Position numbers and translations under genes: made by a program | The notes under the pieces: generated by a model | The model's input: only the letters and a program-made list of their open reading frames with translations | Database searches by the model: none | Told to the model about the DNA's origin: nothing | Part shown: positions 35,405 to 44,599 of the stretch, piece by piece | Layout: each line of letters begins with the position of its first letter | How positions within the stretch are numbered: position 1 is the stretch's first letter | Origin: Bacillota bacterium | Lineage (GTDB): Bacteria > Bacillota > Sulfobacillia > JAJYWN01 > JAJZPE01 | DNA length: 64,000 nucleotides | NCBI GenBank assembly: GCA_021787335.1 | Contig: JAJYMC010000003.1 | Location: 62,001 to 126,000, forward strand | Direction: 5' to 3'

Positions 35405-36784
35405 TCATCTATCCCAGTCCGGGCCACCCGGGGGGAAGGGATGTTGCGGGGTGCACTGCTGCAGGAAGACATACGCATCGAAAGACCGGCCGACGAACCT
35501 GAGCTCGTGGTCGGTATCCAGGATCAGCGTTCGGAGCGGAAGGTTCTTGAACCTTTCCGGTATGAGACCCCTCGTAAAGGCCCGCTCGTCCTTGACCTCG
35601 TGGAGCCCGGCGTAGTAGAAGCTCCCCGAGACCGGCCAGATGGCCAGACTGCGCACCTTGCCTTTGGTCTGAGCGAAGTCCTCGTTCAGGACGATGGCCA
35701 GGTTCCTGGGCTTCGCCGACGCGAACCCGGCGTGCACCGCCCCGCCGTAGACAAGAACCTTTCCGGTCCGCTCCGGGTGATAGCGATCCCACAGGTACCG
35801 CCAGACGGCCATGCGAGTCTCTTCCCGGGTGGCCATCTGGCCGATGACGGTCTCTTTGCGGTTGGAGGTCTCGGTCTCCTTCAGGACCCTGATGGTCATC
35901 GCCAGCTTGTCATAGTCGGGTATGGTGTCCTTGATGGTCGAGGTCTTGGCCAGGAAGGTCTCCTCGAATGTCTCCAGGTCCGGTGGCTTTTGGGTCAGTC
36001 CCGACACGGGCCGCCGCTTTTGGGTGGCCCGCCAGAAGAGGTCCTCGAGTTCCTTGGCCAGGGCCTGGTCGGGGATGGCCCGCAGCATCGCCTGAACCTG
36101 GGCTCGCCCCTGGAGGGGGGCGTAGGCGATATCCGTGCCCCAGACGGTTATCCGTTCGTCCTCGGGCAGCGTGCGGTTCCACGCCTGCAGGGCGCGCCAA
36201 AAGGCCAGTTGCTCCTCGGTGTTCAACCCCCAGGAGACCAGCCACATGTCGAGTTTCCGCAGGTGTTCCTCGTCACCCGTCCTGAGGTACTCATTGAGGG
36301 CGTCGGTGTAGGTGAAGTCGGTCTCCAGGGCCAGGTAGCGGTAGCCCAGACGGTGGAGGTAGGCCAACACCCTCAGGACCAGCTGCGGGTTCTCAGCGAT
36401 GCCGTGGGACTCGCCGAGCATGAAGACGTCCGCTTGCGTGGCCAGGCCGTGCAAGGGCTCGAGGTCGCCGAAGTCCTCAAGGTCGCCCAGGCTGACCAGG
36501 GGGCGCTGGTTGGCTTCGATGAAGGCCATGGAGCCCTCGGGGTCCAGGCCCAGCTGAAGCCGGAGATCTCGGAGGCGCCCCTCGGTCTCCGCCTGTTGCT
36601 TGGCGAGGGCTTGCTCGGCCTGATCCAGCCAATCCCTCGGAGCTGAGCAGCCGGCCAACGACAGAAGGGCCACCAAGGCTAGGCAGACCGCGCCCCGACC
36701 GGCGATTCCCGGACCCCTTGCCGAGGACCGAGCCGTGGCGAAGCGACGCAAAGGGACCGCCCCCCGTCCCGGACATGCCATCAT
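35405..36784 (-). CDS. Erythromycin esterase-like lipoprotein (EreA/ChaN-type fold)
   Basis: About 459 aa. The N terminus has basic residues, a hydrophobic stretch and the lipobox LSLAGC, so it is probably an extracytoplasmic lipoprotein. A coiled, charged segment precedes a domain with VFMLGESHGIAENPQLVLRV, RYLALETDFTYTDALNEYL and VLVYGGAVHAGFA. These conserved His/Glu positions recall the erythromycin-esterase/ChaN/TIKI superfamily. The start is one of two adjacent ATG codons (36784, 36781). Hydrolase activity is an inference; the substrate is unknown. Confidence 0.7.
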   Translation of the reverse strand: MMACPGRGAVPLRRFATARSSARGPGIAGRGAVCLALVALLSLAGCSAPRDWLDQAEQALAKQQAETEGRLRDLRLQLGLDPEGSMAFIEANQRPLVSLGDLEDFGDLEPLHGLATQADVFMLGESHGIAENPQLVLRVLAYLHRLGYRYLALETDFTYTDALNEYLRTGDEEHLRKLDMWLVSWGLNTEEQLAFWRALQAWNRTLPEDERITVWGTDIAYAPLQGRAQVQAMLRAIPDQALAKELEDLFWRATQKRRPVSGLTQKPPDLETFEETFLAKTSTIKDTIPDYDKLAMTIRVLKETETSNRKETVIGQMATREETRMAVWRYLWDRYHPERTGKVLVYGGAVHAGFASAKPRNLAIVLNEDFAQTKGKVRSLAIWPVSGSFYYAGLHEVKDERAFTRGLIPERFKNLPLRTLILDTDHELRFVGRSFDAYVFLQQCTPQHPFPPGGPDWDR

Positions 36785-36841
36785 CTGGGAGTTCGACGGT
36801 CCAGGAGCCAGCCCCTTCAGGCCTTCACTGCGACGGCGCGG

Positions 36842-37213
36842 TTGCTCGTCTCCACCCTTCGCGTCAATGACTCGTCCGTGGCTCTGGGCCTCATCCCGAA
36901 GCCCGGCACGGTCCTCGCCGGGGGCCATACCCTGCCCCGCGTCCAGACCAGCTTCGACAAGGGCAGGAACCAACTGACGCTGACCTTCAAGGACCTGGCC
37001 CTCGGCCCGAACTATTTCAACGGGCCGCAAGCGTGGGCGCCGGGCGAAGGGGCCATCGTCAAGTCCGTGGAGCTGCGGCAGGTCCAAGACGACCTTCAAC
37101 TGATCATCGGCCTGGACGGATCGCCTGTCTTCGCCTCGTCGACGGTCTACGCCGAAGCGGGGGTCCTCGGCGGACTGCTGACCTACGAACTGGAGTTCAG
37201 GGCGGGGAAGTGA
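36842..37213 (+). CDS. Hypothetical beta-rich protein, possibly a 5'-truncated remnant
   Basis: 123-aa frame beginning TTG at 36842 with no SD. The frame stays open upstream into the start region of the divergent lipoprotein gene without a usable start. The product has alternating strands (NQLTLTFKDLALGPNYFNG, SVELRQVQDDLQLIIGLDG) and ends LLTYELEFRAGK. Codon bias looks like the surrounding genome. I do not recognise the family. The missing signal peptide and start suggest a decayed gene fragment, but a functional small protein is not excluded. Confidence 0.4.
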   Translation: MLVSTLRVNDSSVALGLIPKPGTVLAGGHTLPRVQTSFDKGRNQLTLTFKDLALGPNYFNGPQAWAPGEGAIVKSVELRQVQDDLQLIIGLDGSPVFASSTVYAEAGVLGGLLTYELEFRAGK

Positions 37214-37294: not shown

Positions 37295-38668
37295 TCAGAT
37301 TTTCATCGCCACGGCGCTCTGCGGGCAGGCGTAGGCGAACTCCTCGGACTCCTGAAGGGCCGCCGGGGCCGTGGCCCGCTCGGCGCGGCTGAAGCCGAAG
37401 CGCGGGAAGTAGTCGGCCGCGGTCTGGGTCAGGAGCCAGACGGACTTCAGGCCCCGCCCACTGGCCCAGGCCAGACGGTCGCGGACGAGGGCGTCCCCGA
37501 TGCCCCGCCCGCGCCAGGCGGCGTCGGTCGCGACCGACCGCAGTAGCCCGTCATCCCCGTAGACCTCCACGCCGGCCACGCCGATGACCCGGCCGTCGGC
37601 CGCTGTGGCCACCTTGTACTGCGGCCCGAACTGCGCCTGGAAGGCGGCCTCGGCCAGAGCGGACTCCTTCAACAGACGGCTCACCGCCGGCACGTCGGCG
37701 GCGGTCGCTTCGCGGATGGTGAATGGGCCCTCGCCCGGCTTGCGGGCGCGCACGAAGCCGCTCACCAGCCGGACGCCCGCGGGCAGGATGGTCCCGCCGC
37801 CGCAGCAGTTCTGGCCAGCCTTCTCTGAGTCGACTTTCTCTGAGTCGGCCTTCCCCGAATCGACCTTCCCTGTGGACCCGCAGCACAACCCCGATAGGCT
37901 CGCGACCGCGTCGCCTCCGCAACAGCTCTGCCCGGCTTCATCGGCTAGCCTGCCGGCGTAGACCTGCGTGACCTCCAGGGACTCGCCGATGAACCCCGCC
38001 TCTCGCAGGCCGGCCAGGTATTCGCGTTCCTCCAGGGCCCCGGAGACGCATTCGCACCAGGCGTCGATCGAGCGCCGAAGCCACGTCGGGATGGCCGACA
38101 GGTCGCCCTGGAAGGCCATGTCCGACACGGCGAAGCGGCCGCCCGGCTTCAGCACACGAAAGGCCTCCCGGAAGACCTTTCCCTTGTCGGCGGACAGGTT
38201 GATGACGCAGTTGCTGATGATTAAGTCGACCGACGCGTCCGGGAGCGGGATGGCCTCGATCTCGCCCTTCAAGAACTCGACGTTGGTGGCTCCCGCCTTG
38301 GCCTGGTTCTGGCGGGCCATGGCGAGCATCTCGTCGGTCATGTCCAAGCCGTAGACCTTGCCCGTCGGCCCGACCCGCTTCGCCGACAGCAGCACGTCGA
38401 TGCCACCGCCGCTCCCCAGGTCGAGGACAGTCTCGCCGGGGACGAGGTCGACCATCGCCGTCGGCACCCCGCAGCCCAGGCTGGCCTGGACGGCCTCGGT
38501 CGGCAGCCCTTGCCGATCGTTGTTCGAATAGAGCTCGCCGCCGATGCCGGGCGTACTCGAACCGCAGCAACCGGCCGACTCGACCGCCTTGGCCGCGGCC
38601 GCGTAACGGCGGCGGACATGCTCCTTCATGTGTTCCTTCACCTGTTCGTTCAGATGGTTCACCCCCAT
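37295..38668 (-). CDS. arsM: Arsenite methyltransferase (ArsM) fused to ArsN2-like acetyltransferase
   Basis: 457-aa two-domain protein. Residues about 1-245 are ArsM: CCGSS (34-38), GCGVP (Cys66), the SAM site [28 protein letters not shown] (Cys154) and AWCECVSG (Cys205/207). These correspond to the As(III)-binding cysteines of ArsM. A linker (about 246-300) holds three further CC pairs (SCCGGD, LCCGS, NCCGGG) and a repeated DSEK/DSGK motif. Residues about 315-457 are a GNAT domain with [13 protein letters not shown] and CPQSAVAMK, as in ArsN2. ATG at 38668 follows AGGGA. It is divergent from arsR across a shared operator region. Confidence 0.9.
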
Positions 38669-38692
38669 GGCTGTTTCCCTGAGACCAGGATA

Positions 38693-38710
38693 TATCAACG
38701 GAAGTTGATA
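38693..38710. promoter_or_regulatory. ArsR-type operator next to arsM
   Basis: Perfect inverted repeat TATCAAC-GGAA-GTTGATA, 25 bases before the arsM start. A related half-site pair lies on the arsR side, so one regulator could control both promoters. Confidence 0.7.
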
Positions 38711-38712
38711 CG

Positions 38713-38772
38713 TCAAGACCCCTCAAGACCCCTCAAGACCCCTCAAGACCCCTCAAGACCCCTCAAGACCCC
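38713..38772. repeat. Six tandem 10-bp repeats between arsM and arsR
   Basis: Six identical copies of TCAAGACCCC in direct head-to-tail order, one helical turn each, lying exactly between the two operator-like palindromes. No coding capacity. Confidence 0.95.
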
Positions 38773-38814: not shown

Positions 38815-38833
38815 ATGATTGGAGGGATTGTCC

Positions 38834-39247
38834 ATGACCGACGCACCGTCGAGGATCGCACCGTCGAGGATCGCATCGTCGAGGACCGAAACGGCGAGGA
38901 CCGAAACCGACGACCAGATCGTCGAGCGCCTGACCGGGCTGGCCAAGGCCCTGTCGGACCCGACCCGGTTGCGCATGCTCAGGATGATGGCCGCCGGGCG
39001 GCCCTGCTGCGCCGACGCCACCTGCGCACCGACGGTCCCGGCCGACGACGCCACCAAGGGCATCTGCGTCTGCGAATTCCAGTACGTCTTCGGCCTCGGG
39101 CAGTCGCGCGTCTCCTACCACCTCAAGGTCCTGAAGGAGACCGGCCTCGTCGACGAAGAGACCCGGGGCAAATGGACCTTCTACTCGTTGAACGAAAGGG
39201 CGGCCCGCGAGCTCGGCCGGTCGCTCGAAGCGTATCTGCGCGGTTAG
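38834..39247 (+). CDS. arsR: ArsR family transcriptional regulator
   Basis: 137-aa winged-helix repressor. The core reads VERLTGLAKALSDPTRLRML, QSRVSYHLKVLKETGLVDEE and a wing RGKWTFYSLNERA. Candidate As(III) cysteines are CCADATC and ICVCEF, ahead of the recognition helix. The first 22 residues are a repetitive Ser/Arg/Ile/Thr-Glu extension coded by 15-bp repeats. ATG at 38834 has GGAGGG 7 bases upstream. It probably represses its own gene and divergent arsM until arsenite binds. Confidence 0.92.
   Translation: MTDAPSRIAPSRIASSRTETARTETDDQIVERLTGLAKALSDPTRLRMLRMMAAGRPCCADATCAPTVPADDATKGICVCEFQYVFGLGQSRVSYHLKVLKETGLVDEETRGKWTFYSLNERAARELGRSLEAYLRG
38843..38902 (+). repeat. 15-bp tandem repeats in the arsR 5' end
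   Basis: Four consecutive 15-bp units, the first two identical (GCACCGTCGAGGATC), the next two diverged. They encode the APSRI-type N-terminal extension in frame. Confidence 0.85.
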
Positions 39248-41512: not shown

Positions 41513-41604
41513 AGCGCTGTGTTCACCTCGTCTAGCGTGTAAGACGCGCGGGAGTACCCAAAAGTCACGCGCTTCGGCCGGGAAATCGTCCGCGGTAAAA
41601 TCGA

Positions 41605-41632
41605 AAGCGCCTGACCATACGGTCAAGCGCTT
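41605..41632 (-). terminator. Terminator after the asparagine synthetase fusion gene
   Basis: Stem AAGCGC-TGACC with one C/A mismatch and an ATAC loop. Read on the minus strand it is followed by TCGATTTTACC. It separates asnB from the sigma-factor gene. Confidence 0.7.
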
Positions 41633-41650
41633 CTCGTGTCTTTATGAGGT

Positions 41651-44461
41651 TCAGGCCGCGGGCTGACCCGCGGGCAGCCCCACCGGCTGTCCCGCCGGCC
41701 GGCCCACCGGCCGCAGGATGGCGATGGGCGTCTGCTGGTGGCCCTGGCCGAGCGGGTTGTCCCGCATGAGCCAGGTGACCAGCTCCGGGTCGACCCCGTG
41801 GGACCAGCCCAGGACCTTGGTCGATAGGTCACTCGAATCGATGATGGCCACCCCGACGCCGTCGCCGACGGCGGCCGACAGCTTCTCGGCCACCCCCATC
41901 GGGTCCTTCGGGCCGAGTTTGGCCTGCTTGTTGTAGGGCGGCAGGGTGCCCGGCGTGGGGCCGTCGATGGCCTCGACCGTCGGACCGGCGATGCGGTAGA
42001 AGATGCCGCGCCGCCCGACCAGCCGCCCGAGGGCGGTGGCCGCCGTCGCCAGCAGGATGCGCGGGGCGCCGGCCTCGTTCAGGGCCAGCTGCATCGTCTG
42101 GGGGATGCCCAGGCCGATGCCGTGCGGGGTCTTGGTGACCGCCTGGGTCAGCAGGCGCGCCAGCCACGTGACCTTGATCTCCTCGATCGGCCACGAGCGG
42201 CCCTGGCTGATGGCCACGGGCTTCTCGGCGATGACGGCGATGTCGCCCGGCTTGACGTGAGCGCCGATCGACTCCTTGAAGAAGGCCGCCAGGTCGTCGC
42301 CCCTGCGGACGACCTCGGTCCGGATGGGCAGGCGGGCGTAGGCCCGGCCACCACCCACGGCGAAGAGGTGCTTCGGCGGGTTGGGCCGGTAGGCGGCGAC
42401 CAGCCGCGCGGCCTCGTCCGAGCGGTCGCCGGTGCCGCTCGAGCCGCCGGTGTCGCCCAGGTCGCCGGCCACGTTCACGCTGAGGGCGTCGCCCAGTTCA
42501 GCCAGGCTCCCGCGGTGCTTGGGCCCGGGGATGGCGCCCTTGACGTGCCCCTCGGCCCCGTCACTGACCACGGTGTCCCTGGCGTCGATGAACTCACGCA
42601 GCCACAGCTCGACGTTGATGGCCCGCCAGAAGAACATGGACTGATCGATCCGGCCACTGTTGGCGGCCAGGAAGGCCCGGGCCACCGCCGGACCGTCCCA
42701 GTATGGACGGGCGACGAAGGTGGGTGAATTGAACAGGCTCAGGAAGGCCGCCCGACGGGCTCTGATCCACCGGAACTCGGGCGTGGTGAACCCGACCTTC
42801 CAGCGGCGCAGCCTGATCCTCTCCGGAATGACGCCCTTGAGGCCCTGGCGTAGGAGCCAGCGGCTCCAGCCGTGGCGAATGATGGCGTCCGACGGCTGGC
42901 GGAGGATCCACTCGACCAGCTCCTGGTCCAAGTAGGGTACGCGGGACTCGATGGAATGGGCCATCGAGTTCTTGTCTTCGTAGCGCAGCAGGCACGGCAG
43001 GCTATAGGTGGTCAGGTCCTGCAGGAGCCGCTGCTTCAGGTCGTCGCGCGAACGGGTGTAGCCAGGGTCGGTGACCCGGCCGACGAACTCCGGACGCAGC
43101 AGGCTCTGGAGCGGGAAGCCCTTGCGACGGTCGCGCAGGCGGCGGGTCAGGAGCGGCTTCAAGACGTCCCTGGCCGCCCAGGCCTCGCTGAGGAAACGCC
43201 CGTACTGACGCCGCTTCCACAACTGGCTCAGGTAGACGAACTGGTAAGGCACGTAGCCGGCCAAGAGCTCGTCGCCGCCCTGGCCGTCCAGGACGACGGT
43301 GACGTGCTTCCGAGCCTCGCGCATGACGCACCACTGGGCGTAGGGGCCGGTGCTGATGAACGGCTCCTCCTGGTGCCAGATGAGGTCGCGCAGCTCGTCG
43401 ACGAAGGTTTCGGACAGCGGCCGGACGTAGGACGTGTCGGCCCCGGTGGCCTTAACGGCCACGTCGATGTACTCGCGCTCATCGATGGGGTCGTTATCGA
43501 AGACGGCCGAGAAGGTCTTCAGCTGCCCGCGCATCGAGGACGCGTCGGGGTTCTGGTCCCGCATCAGGCCGCTCATGAAGCTGACGATGGAGGTCGAGTC
43601 GAGGCCGCCGGACAGGCATGAGCCGACCGGGACGTCGGCCACCAGCCGGCGCCGTACGGCCTTCTTGAACAGCTCGCGGAACTCGTCCGGGTCGCCGGAG
43701 CCGTCCTCGCTGAGGCGCGGCGCCCAGTAGGCGACGGGCTTCAGCGCGTCTGCGGCGTCCGCGGCGTCAGCGGCGTCGGTGCCCGCGCCGTCCGCGGTCG
43801 CTGAAGCGCTCGCGCCCTCCGCGGCCGCGCTCTCGCCGAGCTCGAGGACCATGTACGTGGCCGCCGGCAGATGGCGGACGCCTTCGAAGAAGGTCTCCGG
43901 CCGGTGGTCGTGCAGGCCGTGGAGCAGGTACTCGTAGACCATCTGGTCGTTCGGCCGGGCCGGCACGGCTGGATCCTGCAGAAGGGCCTTGATCTCCGAC
44001 GCGAAGAGGAGCCGCCCGCCGGCCTGCGCGTAGTACAGCGGCTTGATGCCGAAGTGGTCGCGGGCCAGGACCAGACGGTTCAGACGCCGGTCGGCGATGG
44101 CCACGGCCCACATGCCGTTGAAGCGGGCGAAGCACTCCGGCCCGTATTCCTCGTAGGCGTGGACGATGACCTCGCTGTCGGCGTTGGTCTTGAAGACATG
44201 GCCGCGCTGGATGAGTTCGGCGCGCAGTTCGCGATAGTTGTAGACCTCGCCGTTGAAGACCAGCCAGACCGAGCCGTCCTCGTTGCCGAGGGGCTGGTGT
44301 CCGGTCTCGAGGTCGATGATGGACAGGCGGCGGTGGCCCAGGCTGACTGACGGCCATTCGAGCGTGCCGAAGTCATCGGGCCCACGGTGAAGAAGGACCG
44401 CGCCCATCCGGTCGAGCAGTTCAGGATCCGGTTTTCCGGTGAATCCGTAGATACCGCACAT
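41651..44461 (-). CDS. asnB: Asparagine synthetase (glutamine-hydrolysing) fused to CofE-like domain
   Basis: 936-aa protein. Residues 2-210 are a class II glutaminase with nucleophile Cys2 (MCGIYGFTGK), LLHRGPDDFG and NGEVYNYRELR. An Ala/Asp-rich insertion (about 209-241) follows. The synthetase domain has the PP-loop SCLSGGLDSTSIVSFM (about 281-296) and ends near 628. A linker of about 80 residues leads to a third domain (about 709-918) with GDIAVIAEKPVAISQGR, IPQTMQLALNEAG, TLPPYNKQAKLGPKDPMGVA and RDNPLGQGHQQTP. I recognise this as the F420-0:gamma-glutamyl ligase (CofE)-like family. ATG at 44461 has GAGGAGGG. There is no stop between the domains. Confidence 0.88.
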   Translation of the reverse strand: MCGIYGFTGKPDPELLDRMGAVLLHRGPDDFGTLEWPSVSLGHRRLSIIDLETGHQPLGNEDGSVWLVFNGEVYNYRELRAELIQRGHVFKTNADSEVIVHAYEEYGPECFARFNGMWAVAIADRRLNRLVLARDHFGIKPLYYAQAGGRLLFASEIKALLQDPAVPARPNDQMVYEYLLHGLHDHRPETFFEGVRHLPAATYMVLELGESAAAEGASASATADGAGTDAADAADAADALKPVAYWAPRLSEDGSGDPDEFRELFKKAVRRRLVADVPVGSCLSGGLDSTSIVSFMSGLMRDQNPDASSMRGQLKTFSAVFDNDPIDEREYIDVAVKATGADTSYVRPLSETFVDELRDLIWHQEEPFISTGPYAQWCVMREARKHVTVVLDGQGGDELLAGYVPYQFVYLSQLWKRRQYGRFLSEAWAARDVLKPLLTRRLRDRRKGFPLQSLLRPEFVGRVTDPGYTRSRDDLKQRLLQDLTTYSLPCLLRYEDKNSMAHSIESRVPYLDQELVEWILRQPSDAIIRHGWSRWLLRQGLKGVIPERIRLRRWKVGFTTPEFRWIRARRAAFLSLFNSPTFVARPYWDGPAVARAFLAANSGRIDQSMFFWRAINVELWLREFIDARDTVVSDGAEGHVKGAIPGPKHRGSLAELGDALSVNVAGDLGDTGGSSGTGDRSDEAARLVAAYRPNPPKHLFAVGGGRAYARLPIRTEVVRRGDDLAAFFKESIGAHVKPGDIAVIAEKPVAISQGRSWPIEEIKVTWLARLLTQAVTKTPHGIGLGIPQTMQLALNEAGAPRILLATAATALGRLVGRRGIFYRIAGPTVEAIDGPTPGTLPPYNKQAKLGPKDPMGVAEKLSAAVGDGVGVAIIDSSDLSTKVLGWSHGVDPELVTWLMRDNPLGQGHQQTPIAILRPVGRPAGQPVGLPAGQPAA

Positions 44462-44570
44462 GGCTTGTCCCTCCTCGGGCCGTGCCCCCAGAATTCGTCG
44501 CGACCAGCCGTCGGGCCTCTTTTCGAGGCCATCCAGCCGTATCTTCATAAGATTCGACGTTCAACTAGTC

Positions 44571-44599
44571 ATTCTAACACAACAACAAGCTGCGGACAA
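44571..44599 (-). promoter_or_regulatory. Promoter of the asnB fusion gene
   Basis: Read on the minus strand: TTGTCC (44599-44594) and TAGAAT (44576-44571) with a 17-base spacer, about 110 bases before the ATG. Confidence 0.65.

Follow-up and report, generated by a model that had tools for sequence, protein, structure and literature searches.

A conserved, apparently undescribed fusion of an asparagine-synthetase-type enzyme and a CofE-like ligase domain

Why would an enzyme built like asparagine synthetase carry at its C-terminus a relative of CofE, the ligase that adds glutamate to F420-0? The question is raised by one gene in the 64,000-nucleotide stretch of a Bacillota genome that we analysed (hereafter, the window), in which an earlier note had seen a single frame encoding a class II synthetase, with Cys2 and a PP-loop, followed by a CofE relative. 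We found this to be a real and conserved fusion of two known enzyme families; a literature search for an AsnB-CofE-like fusion retrieved no report, its one hit on amino-acid ligases proving unrelated, and the protein is apparently undescribed. The answer bears on more than one gene, as about 40% of the genomes in an even sample of the phylum (159/398) carry a PF01996-type CofE-like protein, and even where F420 cannot be made, PF01996 proteins are prone to annotation as F420-0 ligases.

Architecture of the gene and its AsnB half

The frame runs from 44461 to the stop at 41651 on the minus strand, encoding 936 residues without interruption (Table 1). Its start, the ATG at 44461 (MCGIYGF), is conserved and is preceded by the sequence GGAGGGAC; a second in-frame ATG lies ahead of it at 44548. 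Class II amidotransferases require a Cys directly after the initiator Met, and the ATG at 44461 was therefore chosen over the one at 44548. A Pfam scan placed GATase_7 at residues 43-162. In the predicted structure of the full-length protein (pLDDT 85.6, pTM 0.88) the domains are positioned relative to each other with high confidence, and they are separated by a linker in which pLDDT drops at residues 632-639 and 669-677 and helices span 653-665 and 677-690. Pfam, NCBIfam and fold comparison thus agree with the architecture claimed in the earlier note.

Table 1. Coordinates of the fusion gene, its domains and signals, and of related features in other loci
Feature	Location	Strand	Evidence
Fusion gene, 936 aa	41651..44461	-	Uninterrupted frame; same architecture in 8 relatives and 34 named loci
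Class II glutamine amidotransferase (glutaminase) domain, residues 1-162	43976..44461	-	PF13537 E 5.4e-49, PF13522 E 2.2e-43; Cys2, R, N, E, D
Asparagine-synthetase-type PP-loop synthetase domain, residues 260-622	42596..43684	-	PF00733 (Asn_synthase) E 6.4e-74; SGGLDS intact
Linker, ~75 residues, partly helical, poorly conserved	42374..42595	-	Full-length model
CofE-like ligase domain, residues ~697-920 by model	41702..42373	-	PF01996 E 3.9e-12 for the domain alone; Foldseek match to CofE 2phn
Promoter-like site TTGTCC-17-TAGAAT, TG before -10 (extended -10)	44571..44599	-	Consensus scan, 1 found vs 0.3 expected
Terminator-like hairpin with T-rich tail	41597..41636	-	RNA fold -24.3 kcal/mol, z -4.8
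Amidase_3-F420_ligase fusion, ~540 aa	L138:1883-3508	-	Pfam
Amidase_3-F420_ligase fusion, ~540 aa	L139:1859-3460	-	Pfam
SpoVB/MurJ-like flippase	L041:8744-10330	-	Near CofE-like gene
SpoVB/MurJ-like flippase	L138:213-1832	-	Near CofE-like gene

The AsnB half scored 434.8 bits (E 5.5e-130) against the asparagine synthase model TIGR01536, above its equivalog cut-off of 267.1 bits. Its domains follow the complete order seen in AsnB/AsnO/AsnH (TIGR01536; PDB 1ct9), and it shares their glutaminase site (Cys2, Arg, Asn, Glu and Asp all present) and their PP-loop (SGGLDS), whereas E. coli AsnB, 28.7% identical to this half, lacks the extra C-terminal ligase domain. The first half of the predicted structure matched TsnB9 and E. 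coli AsnB 1ct9 (E 3e-29), and the best PDB match of the AsnB half by both sequence and fold was the hydroxyamidotransferase TsnB9 (PDB 7ylz; 24% identity), which has no ligase domain and whose biosynthetic-cluster context is absent around the fusion.

The two enzymes differ at the acceptor side. The loop ETYDVTTIR of E. coli AsnB (ETYDVTTIRASTPMY) is replaced in the fusion by EEPFIST--GPYAQW (EEPxxST--GPYAQW), which is conserved in nearly all fusions examined and lacks the D and R of the E. coli aspartate-binding segment, and SGEGSDE is replaced by DGQGGDE. The changed loop suggests that the acceptor is not free aspartate, a weak point because the E. coli segment is also missing from another AsnB paralogue encoded in the same genome (L132). 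Given that paralogue, which could cover asparagine supply, the fusion need not make the asparagine of the cell. We know of no peptidoglycan-amidating AsnB/LtsA, a further group of AsnB-type enzymes, that carries a ligase domain.

The gene appears to be transcribed alone, as had been proposed: a promoter-like site lies upstream and a terminator-like hairpin downstream (Table 1), although a pattern scan did not call the hairpin as a terminator. Downstream lie genes for an ECF-type sigma factor and for a MucB/RseB-like protein, and upstream, on the opposite strand, one for an FtsX-type permease; these window neighbours give no hint of a pathway.

The CofE-like domain and its relation to F420

Within the full protein, F420_ligase (PF01996) matched residues 713-876 with 42.3 bits (E 7.7e-11), and the domain scanned alone reached 46.6 bits, in both cases above the Pfam gathering cut-off of 25 bits. 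Because the match extends over no more than profile positions 2-149 of 218, structure was needed to settle the identity of the domain. An AlphaFold model built on 71 relatives (mean pLDDT 89.9) was compared with the PDB by Foldseek, and the only matches with E < 0.001 were five chains of Archaeoglobus CofE (2phn, 7uld, 2g9i), the best being 2phn (E 7.7e-10, probability 1.00, TM 0.56, 18% identity). A PDB search with the single domain sequence gave no significant match (E 0.11), and a profile of the CofE-like family found CofE by sequence (E 1.3e-5). Together, the modelled fold and the profile match indicate that the C-terminal domain is a distant but genuine homologue of CofE.

The domain has the fold of CofE and of the FbiB N-terminal domain (PF01996, TIGR01916; 2phn, 7uld), along with the N-terminal motif GDx(V/I)xxxxKxVxxxxG, the LxPxDP motif and the Asp of the CofE DTFG. 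In contrast, DTFGR of CofE has become DxxD, ANAGVDxSN is not retained, and the C-terminal region has no counterpart. Profile comparison with true CofE was confident over only about 50 N-terminal residues, and a MAFFT alignment placed one metal-site Asp (Asp875, opposite the Asp of DTFG) and not the rest. D833, D875, D878, D901 and N902 are invariant across fusions, and from these residues and the alignment of Asp875 we predict that the CofE-like site is likely active. The domain belongs to a large and uncharacterised CofE-like family.

The link to F420 that the earlier note had drawn from this resemblance did not survive comparison with the CofE equivalog model. Against TIGR01916 the domain reached 14.8-19.3 bits, where the cut-off is 180.65. 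No CofH or CofD scored above cut-off in the genome itself (96.9% complete) or in eight fusion-bearing relatives, and the genome holds no second PF01996 protein. A separate true CofE/FbiB, scoring 249-287 bits, was found in 7/15 other genomes reached via fused or split loci. The fusion is a paralogue distinct from CofE in F420 makers, and stands alone elsewhere. An F420-0:gamma-glutamyl ligase that had gained an amidotransferase could be expected to show the observed PF01996 match and CofE fold, but it is highly improbable given the scores of 15-19 bits, the lack of CofH and CofD above cut-off across these genomes, and the seven fusion-bearing genomes with a true CofE/FbiB of their own. The role of the fusion almost certainly lies outside F420 synthesis.

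Distribution and origin of the fusion

A single frame of about 900-1000 residues that includes the CofE-like domain occurred in 9/61 related genomes, that of the window included, and 34 of the best 80 named loci were fused, a list ranked by similarity to the fused query and hence not a frequency. Carriers belong to Bacillota, Actinomycetota (Thermoleophilia, Acidimicrobiia, Frankiaceae), Chloroflexota and Dormibacterota. That a sequencing or assembly error, or a misread stop codon, joined two neighbouring genes has a negligible probability: the genome is a draft, which is all that can be said for this explanation, and the same single frame recurs in independent assemblies from four phyla, with no stop or start missed. 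In genome G003 the fusion coexists with a stand-alone CofE-like gene (L034, L050), and genome G464 (L122) carries a stand-alone copy together with an AsnB of the same type in an 862-aa frame that is probably a fusion.

When 91 CofE-like domains were placed in a tree, all 36 fused rows fell into one clade (support 100/99), which includes a Symbiobacterium-like genome and whose sole unfused member, L058, is cut by a contig end; the AsnB halves of the fusions likewise formed one clade. The simplest reading of these trees is that the fusion probably arose once and then spread across phyla, the pairing having outlasted long divergence and apparent transfer. The fusion is nonetheless uncommon in a phylum in which the CofE-like family is common, since among the matches listed in the 398-genome sample only the CofE-like domain of the window itself was fused.

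Two loci differ from the intact fusion. In a Chloroflexota MAG (L129), an AsnB of the same type (420-2270) and a CofE-like protein (2239-2940) are encoded by adjacent genes with a 32-base overlap, indicating that the pairing also exists without fusion. The CofE-like protein of L129 falls among the stand-alone copies of Chloroflexota and not in the fused clade (86/91), and the AsnB of this locus is, in a small sample, nearest to the fused AsnBs. In one Bacillota draft genome (L066:6213-8702, plus strand), the AsnB half of a fusion is degenerate: TQGWAS stands in place of SGGLDS in the PP-loop, and the glutaminase residues are gone. The CofE-like half of this fusion is intact, which suggests that the ligase half may be useful alone.

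The latter locus favours a reading in which the two halves have separate jobs: the AsnB half would make asparagine or amidate a target of its own, the CofE-like half would perform the task of the stand-alone family, and fusion would tie their expression or hold them in a complex. The predominance of stand-alone copies in the CofE-like family is consistent with such a division, as is the score of the AsnB half above the TIGR01536 cut-off. We consider it rather doubtful, because a fusion of one origin persists in four phyla, the pair in L129 is split but overlapping, the acceptor loop is unlike that of E. coli AsnB, and the same genome encodes another AsnB.

A possible two-site enzyme and its substrate

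The reading that we prefer, though still tentatively, is that both sites act in tandem on one non-F420 substrate, making the fusion a bifunctional amide-forming enzyme. Given its intact catalytic residues and what is known of the chemistry of its family, the N-terminal half would hydrolyse glutamine at Cys2 and hand the ammonia on to the PP-loop site; there, ATP would turn a carboxylate into an acyl-adenylate and hence into a primary amide. True CofE uses GTP and two metal ions to activate a carboxylate as an acyl-phosphate, to which glutamate is then added (PMC10861534); from its fold and partly conserved motifs, the C-terminal half would similarly use a nucleotide and metal ions to form an acyl-phosphate that is joined to an amino group. 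Acting in turn, the two sites would yield an amino-acid adduct that is also amidated. While the mechanism of each half can be predicted from its family, we infer the activity of the CofE-like site, the sharing of a substrate and the nature of that substrate. Tandem action is supported by the pairing kept across four phyla, by the full-length model, by the second AsnB paralogue in the genome and by the acceptor loop, and a shared substrate gains weight from the overlapping pair in L129 and from the single origin and wide spread of the fusion. It is weakened by the lack of a conserved pathway neighbour, by the distance of most stand-alone copies from AsnB or amidase genes, and by the degenerate AsnB half in L066.

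The product of the glutaminase might instead feed the CofE-like domain directly, with the CofE-like site as the real acceptor site of the enzyme. Glutamine hydrolysis releases ammonia and L-glutamate, the latter being the co-substrate of true CofE (PMC10861534), and the confident placement of the domains in the full model would suit such a transfer. The PP-loop synthetase site is intact, however, and would be pointless if it activated no substrate, which makes direct feeding improbable.

The partners of the wider family offer some guidance to the substrate of a tandem enzyme. Stand-alone CofE-like copies have no conserved neighbours (among 75 neighbours with 146 Pfam families, none occurred in more than four), and most lie nowhere near an AsnB or amidase gene. 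One other partner does recur, Amidase_3 (N-acetylmuramoyl-L-alanine amidase), which shares a frame with a CofE-like domain in about 10/299 Firmicutes genomes, lies within 100 bp of a CofE-like gene in at least nine more, and within 2 kb in others. Pfam confirmed the fusion of Amidase_3 with F420_ligase in two loci (L138, L139), where the same CofE-like family is joined to another amide-bond enzyme, the N-terminal partner being a muramoyl-alanine amidase rather than an AsnB; a signal peptide was not evident by eye in either protein. The Amidase_3-linked proteins form a separate branch distant from the fused clade, and their function may therefore differ from that of the AsnB-fused proteins. SpoVB/MurJ-like polysaccharide flippases were found near CofE-like genes in seven loci, the two in Table 1 and L042, L139, L153, L154 and L029. 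In single loci, stand-alone CofE-like genes abut an Orn/Lys/Arg decarboxylase (L150:1614-3739, minus strand) and an NAD synthase gene (L146:3182-5076, plus strand), neither of which recurred among the loci scanned.

On the AsnB side, it is established that some homologues amidate the diaminopimelate of peptidoglycan, and these mDAP-amidating AsnB/LtsA enzymes have an extra loop in the substrate region (PMC8554201). They are likewise AsnB-type without being asparagine suppliers (PMC8554201, PMC7920481), and the fusion lacks the E. coli Asp-binding segment, as do the enzymes described in PMC8554201, whose clade is absent from our tree. Taken together, the Amidase_3 fusions and adjacency, the flippases and the mDAP-amidating AsnB homologues suggest cell-wall peptides, such as a stem peptide or muropeptide, as the preferred substrate class of a tandem enzyme, which is possible but less likely than not. 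The fuller proposal, that the fusion amidates a cell-wall carboxylate (stem peptide/muropeptide) and also ligates an amino acid to it and that the non-F420 CofE-like family consists of cell-wall peptide ligases, is on present evidence unlikely to hold in its entirety.

A soluble peptide-amide, serving as an osmolyte or storage compound, would be an analogous product. The formation of N-acetylglutaminylglutamine amide (NAGGN) depends on an AsnB-like amidotransferase together with a separate ligase, the same logic as in the fusion, and the AsnB half matched the NAGGN amidotransferase model TIGR03104 with 305.4 bits; the gene also stands alone, with no cell-wall neighbours. Yet this score is below the equivalog cut-off of 570.1, no acetyltransferase partner or transporter is linked to the gene, and the Amidase_3 association of the CofE-like family points elsewhere, so that a product of this kind appears quite unlikely.

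The AsnB fusion and the unrelated muramoyl-alanine amidase fusion together provide a handle on the function of the CofE-like family, which becomes testable with one purified protein. Its assignment would correct a misannotation that may be read as evidence of F420 production.

Elsewhere in the window, a methyltransferase (arsenite methyltransferase-like by eye) and a GNAT acetyltransferase domain share one frame (37295-38716, minus strand) beside an ArsR-family regulator (38819-39247), and an erythromycin-esterase-family protein (PF05139, E 1e-9) is encoded at 35405-37099 on the minus strand, its true start probably lying downstream of the listed one.
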